A stretch of 64,000 nt of DNA from Methylobacter marinus A45 (GTDB lineage Bacteria > Pseudomonadota > Gammaproteobacteria > Methylococcales > Methylomonadaceae): the NCBI RefSeq assembly GCF_000383855.1, contig NZ_KB912877.1:440465-504464 (forward strand), given 5' to 3'. Below, piece after piece: positions 16,671 to 28,221 of the stretch. The translations under genes were made by a program, and so were the position numbers. How positions within the stretch are numbered: position 1 is the stretch's first letter; the number at the start of each line of letters is the position of its first letter. Below the pieces are notes generated by a model. It made no database searches. It saw only the letters and a list, made by a program, of their open reading frames with translations, and was not told the origin of the DNA.

Positions 16671-18866
16671 TCATGCGGAAGCCAGCAGATCCGAGAGCTT
16701 TTCAAAGTTAACCGGCTTGAGCAGGTGATGGTCGAACCCCGCGTTCTGTGACCGGTTACGGTCTTCAGCCTGTCCGTAACCGGTCAAGGCGATCAGGATC
16801 GTATCGCGGGTTTCCGGCAAGGCCCGCAGCCGCTTGGCGACCTCGTAGCCGTCCAGATCGGGCAGGCCGATATCGAGCAGCACGACCTGCGGCCGGAAAC
16901 GCTGCGCCTGTTCGATCGCTTTCAGGCCGTAGTGGACCGTTTCGACTTCATGGCCTTCCGCTTGCAGCAGCATCGCCAGGCTTTCAGCCGCATCGACATA
17001 GTCATCCACGACCAGAATGCGTAGATCGGATAATAAAGAAATAGATGTATTAGGCATAGATTCGTTCGTTGATTCGATAACAGGTTGAATGGTCGGCAGA
17101 AGTGGCAGCCGTACCGTGAATGAACTGCCCTGACCGACGCCGGCGCTCGCCGCCGTGACCGAGCCGCCATGCTTCTCGACCAACTGGCGCACCAGTGTCA
17201 GTCCTAGTCCGAGTCCGCCCTGAGAATGGGCCAGGGAACGATCGGCCTGGGTAAAAAGATCAAAAACATGCGCCAGAAGTTCCGGGGCGATGCCGACACC
17301 GGTGTCTTCCACGCGTATCAGTGCATAAACGCCCGTTTGCATGGCGCTGAGGGTTATTTTACCGCCTTCCTCCGTATACTTGGCGGCATTGTTCAATAAA
17401 TTAGTAATAACCTGCTCCAGCCGTGTCGCATCGCCTTCCACCCACTGAGGCTCTTCCGGCAGGGAAAGCACGAGATGATGCTTCCGCTCTTCAATCAAGG
17501 GCAGGCAATCCTCCACGGCATGGGTAATGATATCGTTTAAATCGCAACGTTCCATTTTCAACCGGATTTTGTTCTGAATGATGCGGGCCACATCCAGCAG
17601 GTCATCAAGCAGCCGCGCCATATGGGTGACTTGCCGGTCAACCAGCGCATGCCCCCATTCCAGCGTGGGATCCGTGTGACCCTGCTTCTTTAATACATGC
17701 AGCGCGTGGCGGATCGGCGCCAGCGGATTGCGCAGCTCGTGGGCCAGCATGGCCAGGAATTCGTCCTTATGGCGGTCAGTTTCGCGCAGCGCCTGTTCCA
17801 TGCGTTTTCTTTCGGCAATCTCATTACTCAGGATTTCATTAGTATGCGCCAGTTCCGCGGTTCTTTCCTGCACTCGGATTTCCAGTTCCTCATGAGATTT
17901 CTGCAGCGCGGCTTCCACCAGCTTCTGCTCGGTAATATCCGTGCAGGTTCCTATCCATTCCCGAATGCTTCCGTCCCCTTCCAATATAGGCACCCCGCGA
18001 ACGGAAACATAACGATATTCGCCGTCATGTCGATAAAGGCGATACTCCGTGTTATAGATAGAAGCGGTCTTCACCGACTGCAGCCAGCCCATCATGGCCT
18101 GCTGACGATCTTCCGGATGCACGGCATTGATCCAGCCATGCCCTTTAACCTCCTCCTCATTCTGGCCCGTAAATAGCCGCCAACTGGGGATATCCTCGAT
18201 GACTTCCCCCAAAGGGCTGGCTGTCCAGGTGACCTGTGTCGTGGCGATCGTCAGGGACCGGTAGCGTTCCTCGCTGAGCCGCAACGCTTTTTCCAGGCTG
18301 TTTCGGGACTGTATCTCCTTCTCAAGCTCGGCATTGCGTTGCGCTAACTCCGTCGTACGGTCGACAACCTCGGACTCCAGTTCCTGTAGCACTTGATGAA
18401 GCTGTTCCTGGACCGTCCGCCTCGTCAATTCCAACGAGCGCCTTTCCAGTTCCGTGGTAACGATATTGGCAAGATTCGCGACATAGGGCTCATAAGGTAA
18501 AAACTCCTCAAGATTATCAATCGAATAGATCAAGAACCCGTATAGCCTCGACGCGGTACGCAGCGGCAGACGGCGCGTGCCTGCCCGATCCAGTGCACAG
18601 GGTTCGGCAGAGGCAAAGGCCCTGTCCCAGTTAGTGGCGCAGCCTGTACAGTTAATAACGGGATCCGATGTTGTTACGCTTATAGAACCTTCCATGCAGA
18701 AATATACCGAGGCAAGGCCGGGCACGATCTGATTTAGCGCTTTATTGACAAAATCAACAATAGTTTGCTGGTCCGGAAGAATGCACAGGGTTCCGGGAAT
18801 AACGAACAGTTTGCCAAGAACCTCGGCTCTACATTGAGTGGTCATCATGGATGAAGCTTGCTGCAA
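16671..18866 (-). CDS. Soluble hybrid sensor histidine kinase with N-terminal GAF-like region, PAS, HisKA, HATPase, receiver
   Basis: The 731-aa product has no membrane segments. An N-terminal ~140-residue region resembles a GAF-type sensor, containing a short CTGC motif near residue 73. A coiled coil (about 140-195), one PAS/PAC (about 195-320) and a second coiled coil follow. The HisKA His lies in LAMLAHELRNPLAP (about residue 375), then the HATPase (DTGVGI, GGLGLGL) and a receiver with Asp in VLLDIGLPD (about residue 662). The receiver matches that of the convergent kinase at most positions, including a long identical centre. It lies 57 bp downstream of the MEDS gene on the same strand, so the pair probably forms a sensory operon. 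Confidence 0.92.
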   Translation of the reverse strand: MQQASSMMTTQCRAEVLGKLFVIPGTLCILPDQQTIVDFVNKALNQIVPGLASVYFCMEGSISVTTSDPVINCTGCATNWDRAFASAEPCALDRAGTRRLPLRTASRLYGFLIYSIDNLEEFLPYEPYVANLANIVTTELERRSLELTRRTVQEQLHQVLQELESEVVDRTTELAQRNAELEKEIQSRNSLEKALRLSEERYRSLTIATTQVTWTASPLGEVIEDIPSWRLFTGQNEEEVKGHGWINAVHPEDRQQAMMGWLQSVKTASIYNTEYRLYRHDGEYRYVSVRGVPILEGDGSIREWIGTCTDITEQKLVEAALQKSHEELEIRVQERTAELAHTNEILSNEIAERKRMEQALRETDRHKDEFLAMLAHELRNPLAPIRHALHVLKKQGHTDPTLEWGHALVDRQVTHMARLLDDLLDVARIIQNKIRLKMERCDLNDIITHAVEDCLPLIEERKHHLVLSLPEEPQWVEGDATRLEQVITNLLNNAAKYTEEGGKITLSAMQTGVYALIRVEDTGVGIAPELLAHVFDLFTQADRSLAHSQGGLGLGLTLVRQLVEKHGGSVTAASAGVGQGSSFTVRLPLLPTIQPVIESTNESMPNTSISLLSDLRILVVDDYVDAAESLAMLLQAEGHEVETVHYGLKAIEQAQRFRPQVVLLDIGLPDLDGYEVAKRLRALPETRDTILIALTGYGQAEDRNRSQNAGFDHHLLKPVNFEKLSDLLASA

Positions 18867-18923: not shown

Positions 18924-19559
18924 CTATGCTTGTATCGCGGGGGTCAGCTCATGATGGTTTTGAGGTTGCTGGAAATAAGGATTATGCACAATCTGACCGG
19001 CCACGATCATCATCGGGTGCACATTCAGCACGTCAAAAAGCGTAGCGCCGTCTATTTTATTGACGTCATACTGACAAATAATGCCATGGATAGGCAACTC
19101 TTCCAGCAGGTTGTTAAGCATCGCTTCATATTCGATCCAGCGTTCAATGCCGGGCAGGCCCTTGTTTATCCAATTTGTTACCCCGGTCAGGCGCATGCCT
19201 GAAAAGCTTTCATGCTGGGTCTGGGCATAAAGGGAACGCCAATAATCAATCATGCGCTCCGGCCTGAAAGTCCCATCGGGACAATAAGTTGCCTCTGCCG
19301 GCTTCAGAAGCAGTTGCTCCGGCTTAATATCACATGGAGGCGCTATGCCTAGTTGAGAGAGCTGCCTATCGATTTCATCCGTGGAAGAAATATTCGCAAG
19401 ATAACCTACTTTTTCGCCGGCACGCAGTCCGCTTTGGATAAACCGGCCAATAATATGACGCCGCTCGTTCTCATTATTGTACAAGTAGCAGATGTGCATC
19501 CCTACCGGAAACGTCTGCTCGGTAAATCCAAATGAAACCCGTTGACTGGTTTGACACAT
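18924..19559 (-). CDS. MEDS-domain sensor protein (DcmR-like sensory domain)
   Basis: This 211-aa protein matches the MEDS domain (methanogen/methylotroph DcmR sensory domain, PF14417): GMHICYLYNNENERRHIIGRFIQSGL near the start and MLNNLLEELPIHGIICQYD, then DVLNVHPMMIVAGQIVHNPY towards the end. MEDS proteins are soluble and RecA-like and often work with histidine kinases. The ATG at 19559 has an AGAGG Shine-Dalgarno 8 nt upstream; the GTG three codons earlier is too close to it. The hybrid kinase gene follows directly. Ligand unknown. Confidence 0.85.
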   Translation of the reverse strand: MCQTSQRVSFGFTEQTFPVGMHICYLYNNENERRHIIGRFIQSGLRAGEKVGYLANISSTDEIDRQLSQLGIAPPCDIKPEQLLLKPAEATYCPDGTFRPERMIDYWRSLYAQTQHESFSGMRLTGVTNWINKGLPGIERWIEYEAMLNNLLEELPIHGIICQYDVNKIDGATLFDVLNVHPMMIVAGQIVHNPYFQQPQNHHELTPAIQA

Positions 19560-20076
19560 ATAAAACACCTCTACAAGACCGTAAAATCCGAAGTCTGTTT
19601 GTTATTAAGAAATACAGCGCTTAGATAATGGAAAAGGATAATTACAAAAATTACACGATATCAGTCAGGCTCCATCGCTAGTGTTTTTTATTATTAACAA
19701 CTCTGAATTACTGAATCTCAGCTTTATAATCAAAACCTTAAATATTTGATTGTATCAACTCTCAATTTTTTGTATATCGCTATTTTTACAAATCGGGAAC
19801 AGAGTAATTTATCTAAGGCTTTTCTGATCAGCATCAGGTAAGCCTTGCCAGATATAAGACTTGCCCATCAATTGATACAAAGATTTTATCCAAAACCCGA
19901 AAGTTCCCGAATAATTTTCAAAGTCTCGACGAAGCACTTAACAATAACACCGGCAATCAGCCGACCCGGCGGTATTTGGCAACGCTATCCATAGGTAGTT
20001 CTACTGATTTATCGCGCTCGTCCATTAAGAAATAATACCAGTGCCAGTCTTGCATCCATCCAGCACTTATCACTCA
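19560..20076. other. Leader region between the MEDS gene and nqrA
   Basis: This AT-rich ~500-bp gap separates the divergent MEDS and nqrA genes and must hold both promoters. No convincing -35/-10 pair, riboswitch fold or repeat could be identified by eye. Confidence 0.4.
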
Positions 20077-21441
20077 ATGATTAAAATAAGAAAAGGCCTG
20101 GACCTGCCCATCAAAGGCGGCCCCGAACAGATTATCAAAACCACGCCCCCCCCTAAAACCGTTGCGATACTCGGTTTTGACAGTATCGGTTTAAAGCCGC
20201 AAATGGCGGTCAAGGAGTCCGATACGGTCATTAAAGGCCAACTATTGTTCACCGATAAAAGAATGCCGGCGGTACGCTTTACCTCGCCCGGGACAGGTTA
20301 TGTAAAAGCCATTAATCGCGGCGAAAAACGCGCTTTGCTGTCGGTCGTGATCGAACTGACTGACAGTGAGGAGGAAGTTCGCTTCCAGTCCTATGCCGAA
20401 GACCGTCTGTCCTCGCTAAACCGCCAACAGATCATCGAGCAACTGCTGGAGTCCGGTTTGTGGACGGCACTGCGCGCACGGCCGTTCAATAGAACGGCAG
20501 ATCCTGAAACAGTGCCTCACTCCCTCTTTATCACGGCCATGGATACCAATCCGCTGGCACCGGCCATCGAACCGCTGCTGGCCGGCCACGAACAGGACTT
20601 CGCCAACGGCGCGCGCATCCTGGCCCGCTTGCCCGAGGGCAAGATCTTTCTGTGCAAACATCCGAAAACCCGGCTGCCGGACATGGACATCGAGAACCTG
20701 ACTGTCGCCGAATTCTCAGGCCCCCATCCGGCCGGCAACGTCGGCACGCATATCCATTTTCTCGACCCCGTCCATCTCGGCAAAACCGTCTGGCACCTCG
20801 GTCTTCAAGATGTGATCGCGGTGGGTAAACTGTTCACCACCGGCCGGCTGTATGTCGACCGCATCGTGTCCCTGGCCGGCCCGTCCGTCAAAAATCCCTG
20901 CCTGATCAGAACCCGAATCGGCGCCTGCCTTGATGAACACTGCCAGGGCGAACTGAGCAGAAACGGTAACCGCATCATTTCCGGCTCGGTACTGTCCGGC
21001 CATAAAGCCGAAGGCGCCACGGCGTTTTTGGGCCGCTACCATCAGCAGATTTCCGTGTTGCCGGAACATCGGCGGCGCGAATTCCTGGGCTGGCTGAATC
21101 CCGGCCTTCATCTCTATTCCATTAAAAATGTCGTGCTATCCAAATTTATCCCCGGCAGCACCTACGATTTCACCACCTCGACGCACGGCGATATCAGGGC
21201 CATTATCCCTAACGGCAATTACGAACGCGTCATGCCGCTCGATATCATGCCGCTTTTTTTACTGCGCGCGCTGGCCGTCCAGGATATCGAAGAAGCCGAA
21301 AACCTCGGCTGCCTGGAACTGGCCGAGGAAGATCTGGCCTTATGTTCCTTTGTCTGCCCGTCTAAACTGGAATTCGCGCCGCTGCTGCGCCGAAACCTGG
21401 AAATGATCGAGGAAGAGATTTCAGGGAGCGTCGGCGCATGA
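20077..21441 (+). CDS. nqrA: Na+-translocating NADH:quinone oxidoreductase subunit A
   Basis: This is the peripheral cytoplasmic subunit of Na+-NQR, associated with quinone binding. The protein is 454 aa from the ATG giving MIKIRKGLDLPIKG, the usual NqrA beginning; a GTG 12 codons upstream is not needed. The barrel-sandwich-like N-terminal part (KPQMAVKESDTVIKGQLLF, SPGTGYVKAINRGEKRA) and the later FTTGRLYVDRIVSLAGP segment are typical. Its stop overlaps the nqrB start by 4 nt. First gene of the nqr operon, which pumps Na+ while passing electrons from NADH to ubiquinone. Confidence 0.97.
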   Translation: MIKIRKGLDLPIKGGPEQIIKTTPPPKTVAILGFDSIGLKPQMAVKESDTVIKGQLLFTDKRMPAVRFTSPGTGYVKAINRGEKRALLSVVIELTDSEEEVRFQSYAEDRLSSLNRQQIIEQLLESGLWTALRARPFNRTADPETVPHSLFITAMDTNPLAPAIEPLLAGHEQDFANGARILARLPEGKIFLCKHPKTRLPDMDIENLTVAEFSGPHPAGNVGTHIHFLDPVHLGKTVWHLGLQDVIAVGKLFTTGRLYVDRIVSLAGPSVKNPCLIRTRIGACLDEHCQGELSRNGNRIISGSVLSGHKAEGATAFLGRYHQQISVLPEHRRREFLGWLNPGLHLYSIKNVVLSKFIPGSTYDFTTSTHGDIRAIIPNGNYERVMPLDIMPLFLLRALAVQDIEEAENLGCLELAEEDLALCSFVCPSKLEFAPLLRRNLEMIEEEISGSVGA

Positions 21442-22637
21442 GCGAGAAACCCGGCAAACTCGGCGCGCTTTTCGGCAAGGGTGGAAAATGGCAGAAGCTG
21501 GGCCCGCTGTACGAGGCCGTGGACACTTTTCTGTATACGCCCGGGACCGTTACCGCGGACGCCCCGCACGTGCGCGACGCCATGGACATGAAACGCATGA
21601 TGGTCACGGTCATCGTCGCGCTGATACCGACCGTCGTCATGGCTTTCTATAATACCGGCCTGCAAGTCAACCTGGCGCTGCAACAGCAAAGCGCCGAATA
21701 TGCCCCGGGCTGGCGCGGCGCCCTGCTGACTTTCATGGGCGCCGGCAGCGATCCGGCCAGCATGCTCGACAACATGCTGCTGGGCGCGCTGTATTTTTTG
21801 CCGGTCTATATCGTCACCGTGCTCGCGGGCGGCTTCTGGGAAGTGCTGTTCGCCTGCGTCAGGCAACAAACCATCAGCGAGGGGTTTCTGGTCACCAGCC
21901 TGCTGTTCGCGCTGATCCTGCCGCCATCCATACCCTGGTGGCAGGTCATGATCGGCATCTCGTTCGGCGTGGTGATCGGCAAGGAAATTTTCGGCGGCGT
22001 CGGCATGAACATACTGAACCCGGCCCTGGTCGGGCGCTGCTTCCTGTTTTTCTCCTATCCCCGGGAAATGACCGGCAATACCGTCTGGGTGCCGGTCGAC
22101 GGCTACAGCCGGGCCACGCCCCTGGCGGAACTGCCCGATCCGGCGCTGGAGCTGTCGGTTTCCTGGCAGGACGCCTTCTATGGCTTAATGCCCGGCTCCA
22201 TGGGCGAAACCTCGACATTGGCCTGCCTGATCGGCGCGCTCATTCTGATCGTCAGCCGCGTCGGCTCGTGGCGCATCATGGCCGGCGTCGTGCTGGGCAT
22301 GGCCGGCCTGTCGCTGCTGTTCAATTACGTCGGCAGCGCGTCGAACCCGATGTTTCAGCTCACGCCGCAATGGCACCTGGTGCTGGGCGGATTCGCCTTC
22401 GGCACGGTTTACATGGCCACCGATCCGGTATCGGCCGCGCATTCCCTGCCCGGCCAGTATGTTTACGGAATGCTGATCGGCGCCTTGACGGTATTGGTCA
22501 GAGTCATCAACCCCGGCTTCCCGGAGGGCATCATGCTGGCTATTTTATTCGGCAACGTGTTCGCGCCGACCATAGACAAGCTATTCGTCAGCCGGCATAT
22601 CCGCAGACGGCAGCGGAGGCTCGATGCAAAAGGATAG
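21438..22637 (+). CDS. nqrB: Na+-NQR subunit B
   Basis: This 399-aa integral membrane subunit has about ten helices and carries covalent FMN and riboflavin in characterised enzymes. The family stretches MDMKRMMVTVIVALIPTVV and GKEIFGGVGMNILNPALVGR are present, and FGTVYMATDPVSAAHS lies near the C-terminus. The FMN-acceptor Thr is normally in an SGAT motif; here the equivalent stretch reads DGYSRATPLAEL, with Arg in place of Gly. It overlaps nqrA by 4 nt and nqrC by 14 nt. Confidence 0.96.
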   Translation: MSEKPGKLGALFGKGGKWQKLGPLYEAVDTFLYTPGTVTADAPHVRDAMDMKRMMVTVIVALIPTVVMAFYNTGLQVNLALQQQSAEYAPGWRGALLTFMGAGSDPASMLDNMLLGALYFLPVYIVTVLAGGFWEVLFACVRQQTISEGFLVTSLLFALILPPSIPWWQVMIGISFGVVIGKEIFGGVGMNILNPALVGRCFLFFSYPREMTGNTVWVPVDGYSRATPLAELPDPALELSVSWQDAFYGLMPGSMGETSTLACLIGALILIVSRVGSWRIMAGVVLGMAGLSLLFNYVGSASNPMFQLTPQWHLVLGGFAFGTVYMATDPVSAAHSLPGQYVYGMLIGALTVLVRVINPGFPEGIMLAILFGNVFAPTIDKLFVSRHIRRRQRRLDAKG

Positions 22638-23448
22638 CGTCCGGCATGCGTTGCAGATTGTATTGGGCGTTAGCCTGGTCTGCTCCCTGTTCGTGTCCGC
22701 CGCCGCGATATTGCTGCATGCCACGCAAAAGCATAACCAGCGCCTGGACAGGATCAGAAATATCCTGATCGTTGCCGATCTGTATGAGGAAGGCGCCGAT
22801 CTTGATGCGATCTATGAACAAAAAATCGAGCCCTTGATGATAAACCTGCAGTCCGGAGAGATCGTCGACGAGGAAAAATTCGATGAAAGACTCAACCTCG
22901 AGACCTTCGATATTCAAGCGCTGGCTTTCGATCCCGATTACGGCGAAGCCATTCCGCCGGAACACGATCAGGCCCGGATAAAACAGCGACCCAAGTACAT
23001 GGTGGTCTATCAGGTCAAGGACGGCCAGCAACTGCAAAAGCTGGTCCTGCCTGTCTACGGCAAGGGACTGTGGTCCACCCTTTACGGCTTTATCGCATTG
23101 GACAAGGATCTGCGCACGATCACCGGCATCACGTTTTACGATCACAAGGAAACGCCGGGGCTGGGAGGAGAAGTCGATAATCCGCAATGGAAAAACAGCT
23201 GGGAGGGCAAACAGGCATACGATGAGCAGGGTCGGGTGATTATCGAAGTCACGCGCGGCGAGATCGATCCGGCTTCAGACCAGGCCGACCATCAAGTCGC
23301 CAGCCTTTCCGGCGCGACCATAACCAGTCGCGGCGTCAATAATCTGGTCAGATACTGGCTGGGCGAACACGGATATAGCCCGTTTCTGGACAATCTCGAA
23401 CAAGGGCAAATACCGGAAGATGTTGCCCGTAACAGCGGGCTGGAGTAA
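22624..23448 (+). CDS. nqrC: Na+-NQR subunit C
   Basis: This 274-aa subunit has one N-terminal membrane helix (about residues 10-30) and a periplasmic FMN domain. The ApbE flavinylation motif is intact (LSGATITSRGV), with the acceptor Thr near residue 239. FYDHKETPGLGGEVDNPQWKNSW is a family signature. It starts inside the last codons of nqrB. Only 3 bp separate its stop from the next start, and the next gene is nqrE rather than nqrD. Confidence 0.96.
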   Translation: MQKDSVRHALQIVLGVSLVCSLFVSAAAILLHATQKHNQRLDRIRNILIVADLYEEGADLDAIYEQKIEPLMINLQSGEIVDEEKFDERLNLETFDIQALAFDPDYGEAIPPEHDQARIKQRPKYMVVYQVKDGQQLQKLVLPVYGKGLWSTLYGFIALDKDLRTITGITFYDHKETPGLGGEVDNPQWKNSWEGKQAYDEQGRVIIEVTRGEIDPASDQADHQVASLSGATITSRGVNNLVRYWLGEHGYSPFLDNLEQGQIPEDVARNSGLE

Positions 23449-23451
23449 GCA

Positions 23452-24063
23452 ATGCTGGAACATTACCTGAGCCTGTTTCTCACCGCCATTTTCATTGAAA
23501 ATCTGGCCCTGGCTTTTTTTCTGGGCATGTGCACGTTTCTAGCCGTCTCCAAACGCATGGCGACCGCCATTGGACTAGGTATTGCCGTCATTGTCGTGCA
23601 ATCGATCACCGTGCCGATCAATAATCTCATTTACCAGCATGTGCTCAAGGAAAACGCCCTGTCCTGGCTGGGACTGCACGGCGTCGACCTGACTTTTCTC
23701 GGGCTGTTGAGCTATATCGGCGTCATTGCCGCCATCGTGCAGATCCTGGAAATGTTTCTGGACAAATATATCCCCAGGCTCTACATCGCGCTCGGCATCT
23801 TCCTGCCCCTGATTACGGTCAATTGCGCCATTCTCGGCGGCAGCCTGTTCATGGTTGAGCGCAATTACAATTTTATGGAGAGCGCCGTGTTCGGCCTGGG
23901 CACCGGCACGGGCTGGGCGCTGGCTATCATTGGGCTGGCCGGCATCCGCGAAAGAATGAAGTACAGCAATGTACCCGAAGGCCTCAGAGGACTCGGCATA
24001 ACCTTCATCACGGCCGGCTTGATGGCCATGGCCTTCATGCTGTTTTCCGGCATCGAGCTGTAG
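23452..24063 (+). CDS. nqrE: Na+-NQR subunit E
   Basis: This 203-aa protein with six membrane helices matches NqrE: the start [21 protein letters not shown], the internal [20 protein letters not shown] and the end [19 protein letters not shown]. NqrE and NqrD are homologous, inverted-topology partners that hold an intramembrane [2Fe-2S] cluster between them. Identification as E rather than D rests on the [16 protein letters not shown] start; NqrD normally begins with a hydrophilic segment and a PLFDNNPIGLQVLG-like stretch, absent here. Confidence 0.95.
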
Positions 24064-24124: not shown

Positions 24125-25353
<1,229 letters not shown>

Positions 25354-25354
<1 letters not shown>

Positions 25355-26084: not shown

Positions 26085-27830
26085 CTACAACCTCAACAGC
26101 GTCTTCAGGACCTCGATATCCACCGGCTTGATCAGATGGTGATCGAATCCCTCCATGCGGGTACGCTCGCGGTCCTTCTTCTGTCCCCAACCGGTCAGCG
26201 CAATCAGTACCACATCCCGCAAGCAGGGTTGCTTCCGGATCCGCCGGGCTACCTCGTAGCCGTCCATCTCCGGCATGCCCAGATCCAACAGTATCATGGA
26301 CGGCGTGAAGACCTTGAGAGTCTCCAGCGCCGTCCTCCCGTCGTAAACGACCTGCACTTCGGCGCCCAGGGATTCCAGCAGCATGCCAAGGCTGTCGGCG
26401 GCGTCGCGGTTATCGTCCACCACCAGGATACGCTGAGGGGAGTGGTGCCCGGCAGACGAGTCTTGCGATGCCTTGGCATCGTCATGGTATTCAGCCACTA
26501 GCGGCAGATAAACGACAAAATCGCTGCCCTGGCCGGGACCTGCGCTATAAACCTCGATGCTGCCGCCGTGCATCTGTACCAGGCTGCGCGCCAGGGCCAG
26601 CCCTATACCCAGGCCGCCCTGAGCATGGCTGGCGCCAATGTCGACCTGGGTAAACAGGTCGAATATCGAAAGCAGCGCCTCGGCAGGGATGCCGATACCT
26701 GTGTCCCGCACGCTCACCCTGGCGGTAGTGTCTTGTCTTCGTACCGAAAGATAAATGTCTCCGCCCGCCTTCATGTATTTCGCCGCATTGTTAAGCAGAT
26801 TGGCGAATACTTGAGTGAGCCGCACCGGATCGGCGTTGAGAACCAATGGTTCATCGGGCAGGGAAACCGTCAACTGGTGGCCGGTGGCTTCAATGAAGGG
26901 CAAGGTGCTTTCGACGGCACTGTCGATGATAGCGGACAATTCGAGGTATTCCCTCTTGAGTTCGATCTTGCCGCGACTGATGCGGGAAACATCCAGCAGG
27001 TCGTCCACCAGGCGCACCATGTGTTCGATCTGGCGGTCTATGACATCATGGCACCAGGCGAGCCGCTTTTCGTCCAGATCGGGCCGTTTCATAATCTGCA
27101 CGGCATTGCTGAGCGGCGCTAAAGGATTGCGCAGTTCATGGGCCAGGATGGCCAGAAACTCGTCCTTTTGCCTATCCTTGTTTTGCAGGGCCTCTTGCGC
27201 CCGCATACGCTCGGCGATCTCGATTTCCAGCGCCATGTTGGCGCATTGAAGATCCGCTGTCCGCGCCCTGATCCGCGTCTCCAGTTCCTCATTGGCCTTG
27301 CGCAGGGATTCCTGTGCCTGCCGCAGTTCCGTCAGGTCCGTGACTACGATCGCGCAGCCAGCCTCGGGGGCTTCCAGCGGGGCCGGATTGATCGAAACCA
27401 TCACGGGCACCCGGCTGCCGTCGGCACGGATCAGCGACAGATTGTCGCGGTGCGGCCTTTCCTCCGCTCTTGCCAGGAGCGAGGCAAAATCCGCCGCCTG
27501 ATCCAGGGGCCAAAAGCGTTCGAGGCCGGCACCGGTGATTCTACTCAGCGCCATGCCTGTCAGGTCCGCGAATCGCCGGTTGGCATAAAGAACCGTCCGG
27601 TCGGCGGCGACGATGAGGATCCCCTCGTTCAGCGTTTCGAACAAATGTCTGTAGATGGTATCGACCCCTTCCAGGGTATAAACCCGGTATTTGCCGTCGT
27701 GATTCACCACCACCGCGTCCACTGTGGCGGTATGGATGGCGTCCAGGGTTTCCTGCGCTTCCTCCAGGCGCAGCGTCAGGTCCTGGATTTTAAGTAGCAG
27801 CTCCTGCTGTGCCTCATTGCCGGATTTCAC
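26085..27830 (-). CDS. Hybrid histidine kinase of the Kai-type operon: PAS, HisKA, HATPase, receiver
   Basis: The start is a GTG overlapping the end of the second kaiB, giving 581 aa; a longer frame from 27911 would overlap kaiB by about 98 bp. An N-terminal coiled coil is followed by a PAS domain (about 55-165) and a second coiled coil. HisKA has its His in LAILAHELRNPLAP (about residue 230). The HATPase (DTGIGI, GGLGIGL) and a receiver with Asp in ILLDLGMPEMDG (about residue 515) follow. No membrane segment or DNA-binding output. Its place at the end of kaiC-kaiB-kaiB suggests it reads the KaiC/KaiB state, like SasA or CikA in cyanobacteria; this is inference. Confidence 0.9.
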   Translation of the reverse strand: MKSGNEAQQELLLKIQDLTLRLEEAQETLDAIHTATVDAVVVNHDGKYRVYTLEGVDTIYRHLFETLNEGILIVAADRTVLYANRRFADLTGMALSRITGAGLERFWPLDQAADFASLLARAEERPHRDNLSLIRADGSRVPVMVSINPAPLEAPEAGCAIVVTDLTELRQAQESLRKANEELETRIRARTADLQCANMALEIEIAERMRAQEALQNKDRQKDEFLAILAHELRNPLAPLSNAVQIMKRPDLDEKRLAWCHDVIDRQIEHMVRLVDDLLDVSRISRGKIELKREYLELSAIIDSAVESTLPFIEATGHQLTVSLPDEPLVLNADPVRLTQVFANLLNNAAKYMKAGGDIYLSVRRQDTTARVSVRDTGIGIPAEALLSIFDLFTQVDIGASHAQGGLGIGLALARSLVQMHGGSIEVYSAGPGQGSDFVVYLPLVAEYHDDAKASQDSSAGHHSPQRILVVDDNRDAADSLGMLLESLGAEVQVVYDGRTALETLKVFTPSMILLDLGMPEMDGYEVARRIRKQPCLRDVVLIALTGWGQKKDRERTRMEGFDHHLIKPVDIEVLKTLLRL

Positions 27831-28221
27831 CGTTCTGCTCCGCTCTGGTGGAAGGTTTCGGACGCAGGTCCAGGCCCACGAGAATGCGCTCGCAATTAGA
27901 GAGATCGCCAATCAACTTGCGCAACGGGCGGGGAAGTTGCTTGACCAGGGTGGGAACGGCGACGATATTGTCGTCTTTCGCTCGCTCCGGTGACTGGTAG
28001 ATGTCGACCACCTCCAGATCATAGCGCCCGACCAGCTCCTGCTCACATACCTGTCGGATATTGGCGATGGCCTGCACCGAGAGCGCCGTGGTACCGGCTA
28101 CGTAAAGGCGTAGCAGATACTGTTGCTCTTTATTCAGGAGCGCGTCCTGAAATGCTTCGGTAGCGCTTTTGGCTTGCTCAGGGTGTTCGCTGACCTGCCC
28201 TGTCTTATCGCGCGGACTCAT
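27814..28221 (-). CDS. kaiB: KaiB-domain protein, second copy
   Basis: This 135-aa protein has a thioredoxin-like KaiB domain from about residue 35 ([16 protein letters not shown]) to residue 125 ([13 protein letters not shown]), preceded by ~30 polar residues. [20 protein letters not shown] is a family signature. It overlaps the first kaiB by ATGA and the kinase gene by a few bases, so the three are translationally coupled. It differs clearly from the first copy and is not a recent duplicate. Confidence 0.93.

Follow-up and report, generated by a model that had tools for sequence, protein, structure and literature searches.

An nqr operon without nqrD, conserved in Methylococcales, may draw its NqrD from a second, complete operon

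According to the accessible text of a 2025 review, the membrane 2Fe-2S cluster of Na+-NQR is held by two cysteines from NqrD and two from NqrE, subunits of opposite topology (PMC12174285). The two are treated as an obligate pair. In a 64,000-nucleotide stretch of the genome of Methylobacter marinus A45 (contig NZ_KB912877.1, positions 440,465 to 504,464; hereafter the window), nqrA, nqrB, nqrC, nqrE and nqrF are present on the forward strand and nqrD is absent. Is this absence real, and if it is, what completes the pair? A lineage that has lost one half and kept the other nearly unchanged would be a natural test on two counts, whether two complexes can share the pair and whether NqrE is able to function in the absence of NqrD.

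Curated NCBIfam models placed NqrA, NqrB, NqrC, NqrE and NqrF each above its cut-off (Table 1), in agreement with an earlier note on this DNA, which had described an A-B-C-E-F operon with the nqrC stop and the nqrE start 3 bp apart and all other subunits intact. The possibility that the 203-aa protein was a mislabelled NqrD was rejected, as it reached 45 bits on the nqrD model against a cut-off of 244.85, and matched the solved NqrE chain with 286 bits and the solved NqrD chain with 28.5; realigned in this way it remains NqrE. We regard the D-less gene content as close to certain.

Table 1. The nqr2 operon and flanking genes, in positions of the window.
Feature	Position	Strand	Size	Model scores	Remarks
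nqrA2	20041..21441	+	466 aa from GTG as listed	NF003759 639 bits, TIGR01936 554 bits, both above cut-off	homology from about residue 13
nqrB2	21438..22637	+	399 aa	TIGR01937 496 bits, above cut-off	threonine of DGYSRAT motif kept; aligned to solved NqrB
nqrC2	22624..23448	+	274 aa	NF003749 318 bits, TIGR01938 243 bits, both above cut-off	threonine of SGAT motif kept
C-E junction	23449..23451		3 bp		site of nqrD in the six-gene operon
nqrE2	23452..24063	+	203 aa	TIGR01940 330 bits, cut-off 247.55	both cluster cysteines kept (27 and 125, alignment numbering)
nqrF2	24125..25354	+	409 aa	TIGR01941 638 bits, above cut-off	ferredoxin-domain cysteines kept, by eye in translation; same residues in 10 related copies
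MEDS sensory-domain protein	18924..19568	-			divergent from nqrA2
hybrid histidine kinase	16671..18866	-			flanks nqr2
hybrid histidine kinase	26085..27911	-			flanks nqr2

The operon, here nqr2, resembles the nqrABCDEF of Na+-NQR (the Vibrio enzyme, and nqr1 below) in five of the six subunits, in gene order and in cofactor residues, but it lacks nqrD, belongs to a separate lineage, and has no apbE after nqrF in the window; the six subunits encoded together that characterize Na+-NQR are thus not all there. Nor is it an RNF, where NqrF and NqrA have RnfB and RnfC as their counterparts, since the NqrA and NqrF models win by far. The reduced Nqr/Rnf-like relatives with two subunits include one of the NqrC/RnfG type and, in the accessible descriptions, join an NqrB/RnfD membrane domain to an NAD-binding domain (PMC8238504, PMC11334425), whereas the window carries five separate canonical genes. 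By eye, no MEDS protein or histidine kinase was seen beside the operon in two congeners (L018, L020).

The source genome (4.99 Mb in 2 contigs, 96.67% complete) holds seven members of the Rnf-Nqr family PF02508: NqrE2, the NqrD and NqrE of a second nqr operon, and those of two rnf clusters. A complete nqrABCDEF-apbE operon (nqr1) lies at C1:132-139 kb, so nqr2 is not the sole nqr operon, and the single NqrD above the nqrD cut-off genome-wide (NqrD1, 328 bits) is encoded there, about 328 kb from the window operon. The two RnfE proteins scored 156 and 144 bits on the nqrD model, below the cut-off. By eye, one rnf cluster adjoins a long ORF resembling pyruvate:ferredoxin oxidoreductase and the other adjoins ORFs resembling nifL and nifA. 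The earlier note had offered three explanations, namely that nqrD lies elsewhere, that a paralogue such as RnfE replaces it, or that a five-subunit variant exists, and these are borne out in part: an nqrD does lie elsewhere and RnfE-like paralogues are present, and by sequence the nqr2 products may use NqrD1, RnfE or no D.

Identities between the nqr2 and nqr1 products of this genome are 53% for A, 56% for B, 39% for C, 71% for E and 59% for F, by which the two operons read as old paralogues. Several clade I Methylobacter genomes encode two NQRs, as stated in the accessible part of a comparison of 2025 (PMC12810054), and nqr2 is probably one of these two.

An assembly or sequencing error could also have deleted nqrD at the junction, a possibility that the earlier note had listed for checking. 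The earlier note had proposed comparing the junction in related Methylococcales, and a profile of NqrC2, run against 311 genomes of the order (E<=1e-80), matched in 57 genomes at 59 places. Loci from 30 of these places comprised 12 without nqrD, 7 ordinary operons with it, and 11 with nqrC but without nqrB, nqrD and nqrE. The other 29 places scored 271-282 bits, which is where ordinary operons and the weakest nqrC-nqrF loci also score, some 100 bits short of the weakest D-less locus (381 bits); as they are unclassified, twelve is a minimum, and the same C-E junction is found in at least 12 of the 311 genomes. Across the 12 D-less operons the C-E gap ranges from -8 to +4 bp, and no D-like ORF was found on any of these loci (3.8-16 kb each). 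Within the window's genus the carriers are the window's genome, G002 and G003 (Methylobacter luteus IMV-B-3098), in the same family G241-G244 (genus group g11), G128 (g16), G181 (g17) and G113 and G114 (g24), and in another family G040 (Methylococcaceae UBA2778); the draft genome of a further congener, G001, has a complete operon only. Given a junction common to 12 genomes, M. luteus among them, a deletion by assembly or sequencing error was rejected and can be considered ruled out for practical purposes. The D-less nqr2 is a real, conserved second NQR operon.

Outside the order such operons were not encountered. In a phylum sample of 396 genomes, each at least 95% complete, there were 108 nqrE matches in 103 genomes and 108 nqrD matches in 104, and by coordinates an nqrD match ended 11-81 bp upstream of 107 of the 108 nqrE, the sole exception being the window nqrE; four other genomes of the sample have two nqrE each, with nqrD beside both. 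The absence of nqrD beside the window nqrE is therefore more than chance. No D-less operon from beyond the order appeared in this survey, nor among 22 further NqrC matches from 369 genomes of the class (one of the 22 from Methylococcales itself), all of which had nqrD next to nqrC, including two in which nqrE fell off the short locus. A scan of 84,980 species with two short peptide patterns, which can miss relatives, returned four loci, two of them D-less operons of Methylococcales and two of them Calditrichota operons with nqrD.

These two Calditrichota operons (L032 and L033) are the nearest six-gene relatives found, and their NqrC and NqrE are the closest to NqrC2 and NqrE2 outside the D-less group. 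They differ from nqr2 in having kept nqrD, and in having apbE after nqrF; L033 begins inside nqrA at a contig end. In quick maximum-likelihood trees of NqrE (49 rows) and NqrC (62 rows) the 12 D-less rows fell on one side of a branch, with moderate support (SH-aLRT 94 and 88), and the group adjoined the Calditrichota operons in both. We have moderate confidence that the D-less group had one origin, and the simplest reading of the trees would be a transfer between phyla, in either direction, together with one loss of nqrD.

The cofactor residues of nqr2 were compared across the D-less operons. We take the covalent-FMN sites to be the threonines of DGYSRAT in NqrB and SGAT in NqrC; the NqrC threonine is kept in all 12 rows and the NqrB threonine in the 10 intact copies, nqrB being broken in the other two (G040 and G114). 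A loss of the NqrB site, considered because the motif reads SRAT rather than SGAT, was rejected, as the Calditrichota copies also have SRAT and the threonine stays. The ferredoxin-type cysteines of NqrF are kept in 10 aligned copies and, by eye, in the window NqrF2. Both NqrB and NqrC carry covalent-FMN threonines in the enzyme as described in the accessible text of PMC4348036, and with the residues present in NqrB2 and NqrC2 attachment is predicted there as well. Of the four cysteines of the membrane 2Fe-2S cluster, the NqrE2 pair is kept in 12 of 12 rows, and a gene outside nqr2 would have to supply the NqrD pair. With the cluster split between NqrD and NqrE, the retention of these cysteines implies a partner.

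We also asked how far the D-less rows depart from positions invariant in D-containing rows (identical in at least 97% of nqr1, class and Calditrichota rows, and counted as kept when the same residue occurs in at least 90% of D-less rows). They keep 94 of 99 such positions in NqrE, 111 of 131 in NqrB and 44 of 48 in NqrC. When only nqr1 and class rows set the reference, 95 of 103 positions are kept in NqrE2 and 96 of 103 in the NqrE of the two Calditrichota operons, where an NqrD is present. Across four pairs the dN/dS of nqr2 was 0.099-0.139 for A, 0.086-0.138 for B, 0.135-0.198 for C, 0.027-0.047 for E and 0.057-0.119 for F, making NqrE2 the most constrained subunit, and that of the six nqr1 genes across two pairs was 0.012-0.064. 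The nqr2 values indicate purifying selection, but, lying roughly two- to four-fold above those of nqr1, a weaker one than on nqr1.

On this material we lean, at slightly better than even confidence, towards a complex completed in trans by NqrD1. On this view nqr2 would descend from an operon with all six genes, of the lineage found today in Calditrichota; a single loss of nqrD, before the D-less operons of Methylococcales diverged from one another, would have left a second operon of Na+-NQR type. An NQR-type complex would still form from its five products, with NqrD supplied in trans by the single nqrD of nqrABCDEF-apbE, so that two complexes would share one NqrD. Electrons would pass from NADH to NqrF2 (FAD, 2Fe-2S), to the 2Fe-2S cluster common to NqrE2 and NqrD1, to the FMN of NqrC2, to the FMN and riboflavin of NqrB2, and on to quinone. 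We infer the assembly of the complex, the sharing of NqrD1 and ion pumping, all three, from sequence.

A partner of the NqrD type is favoured because NqrE2 is little changed (94 of 99) and because of the published structure as given in the accessible text of PMC12174285, and NqrD1 is the nearest available partner of NqrE2. NqrD1 shares 64 and 68% identity with the two Calditrichota NqrD, which we count in favour of sharing, together with the position of the sole nqrD above cut-off in a complete operon, the nearly canonical placement of K/R in NqrE2, and its having the lowest dN/dS of nqr2. Counted on the same side is an nqrD above cut-off in 10 of the 12 D-less genomes, although this co-occurrence is weak evidence, because nqrE occurs in 58 of 61 close relatives and almost all genomes of the order carry a complete operon. 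Counted against sharing are the higher dN/dS of nqr2, the broken nqrB in two of 12 operons, one of which also lacks a full nqrF, the two genomes in which no nqrD was found, and the absence of any lean of NqrE2 towards NqrE1. At 11 sites where nqr1 and Calditrichota differ, NqrE2 is nqr1-like at 1, Calditrichota-like at 9 and otherwise at 1; an adaptation of NqrE2 to NqrD1 thus left no signal, and the lack of convergence on NqrE1 counts against tuned adaptation.

The two genomes without an nqrD above cut-off are the drafts G242 and G243, and they bear on whether a D-less nqr could be the only NQR of a genome. G243 is rated 100% complete in 170 contigs; a DNA search with the nqr1 neighbourhood of G241, which scored 40 of 354 candidates in G243 and 40 of 144 in G242, found in G243 only repeats and its own nqr2 genes. 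Given that aspS, the gene flanking nqr1 in G241, is also missing from G243, a stretch missing from the assembly is likely, and we read G243 as an assembly gap. In G242 (79% complete) aspS and nadA lie on one contig, which past nadA holds 1.37 kb of repeats and an unrelated ORF without nqrA (L153:1-1371, by eye repeats and a RadC-like ORF where G241 has nqrA), and a second contig starts inside apbE. A simple contig break was dropped as an explanation, as the contig continues past nadA and the other cuts apbE; the nqr1 locus of G242 may be rearranged, lost or unassembled.

These drafts would suit a true five-subunit enzyme, in which NqrE2 works without NqrD, for example as an antiparallel homodimer that contributes the full set of four cysteines and so reverts to the one-gene state supposed to be ancestral. 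The absence of a D-like ORF from all 12 loci, the retention of both NqrE2 cysteines, and the two drafts, with nqr1 not beside nadA in G242, are consistent with this proposal. Yet a new partner would be expected to change NqrE2, and little such change is seen: 94 of 99 invariant positions are kept, and the placement of K/R in six D-less NqrE is nearly canonical. One of the drafts, G243, is incomplete at aspS as well. NqrE and NqrD have opposite topologies in the structure as excerpted from PMC12174285, and nothing in the six rows, judged by K/R position only, suggests that NqrE2 has turned to dual topology. We consider a five-subunit enzyme improbable, and a functional NQR whose membrane 2Fe-2S site is built by an antiparallel homodimer of NqrE2 alone a shade more improbable still.

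In place of NqrD1, RnfE from an rnf cluster might replace NqrD in the nqr2 complex. The window's genome has two RnfE genes, and 10 of the 12 carriers of D-less operons, including G242 and G243, have RnfE-type matches. However, NqrD1 is only 33-37% identical to the two RnfE, and two D-less genomes, G113 and G040 (drafts, 77% and 94% complete), have NqrD and no RnfE-type match at E<=1e-20, each having three Rnf-Nqr members, namely the D and E of nqr1 and NqrE2. Because these two drafts show no such match, RnfE is the less likely donor, and we give its use little credence.

A further rival reading is that nqr2 no longer pumps and is a partly dismantled NQR, which either conducts electrons to the periplasm or is on its way to loss. 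Ten loci in the order keep nqrC followed by nqrF without B, D and E (L046-L051, L053, L054, L059 and L060, with nqrF whole, partial or split; in the eleventh, L052, the contig ends after nqrC). One D-less operon, in G128, adjoins an MtrB/PioB porin (PF11854) and a ten-haem protein with 10 CxxCH motifs (L152:2197-6808), and the two broken nqrB and the dN/dS above that of nqr1 point the same way. On the other hand, the window and most other D-less operons retain A and B, which are under purifying selection, the NqrB threonine persists in all 10 intact copies, and in the NqrC tree the nqrC-nqrF loci, which fall on the side of nqr2 and Calditrichota, branch outside the D-less group. We think this outcome unlikely, and still prefer a complex completed by NqrD1.

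Three further proteins (L147:2814-4361(-), L148:6348-7910(-), L149:8766-10322(+)) are fusions of NqrC with an N-terminal domain of about 258 aa; the domain has one CxxCH and no Pfam match in the two of three scanned. The fusion loci adjoin nqrF, small CxxCH proteins and, in two of three, a 427-447 aa protein, and are perhaps a conduit for electrons from NADH to the periplasm. L152 of G128 also encodes a 241-aa protein with one CxxCH that by eye resembles the NqrC-fused domain.

No D-less operon is described in the accessible text of the 2014 paper on NQR evolution (PMC4014512) or of the 2025 review (PMC12174285), and a missing nqrD is not mentioned in that of the 2025 Methylobacter comparison (PMC12810054). 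In the open-licence literature we found no report of an NQR lacking nqrD, of nqrD in Methylococcales or of a second such operon, and 'nqrABCEF' occurs there only as a name for differentially expressed genes. In the annotation of methanotroph respiratory chains, two full NQRs may be credited to genomes of this kind.

Some D-less operons show local changes of their own. That of G114 (L119) is decaying, its nqrB fragmented and its nqrF reduced to a short piece. In G243 a gap of about 200 bp separates nqrE from nqrF (L113:9632-9833), the same gap occurs in G244 (L120), and part of it matches sequence dispersed in those genomes. The sequence between nqrE and nqrF in the window has one other near copy in its genome.
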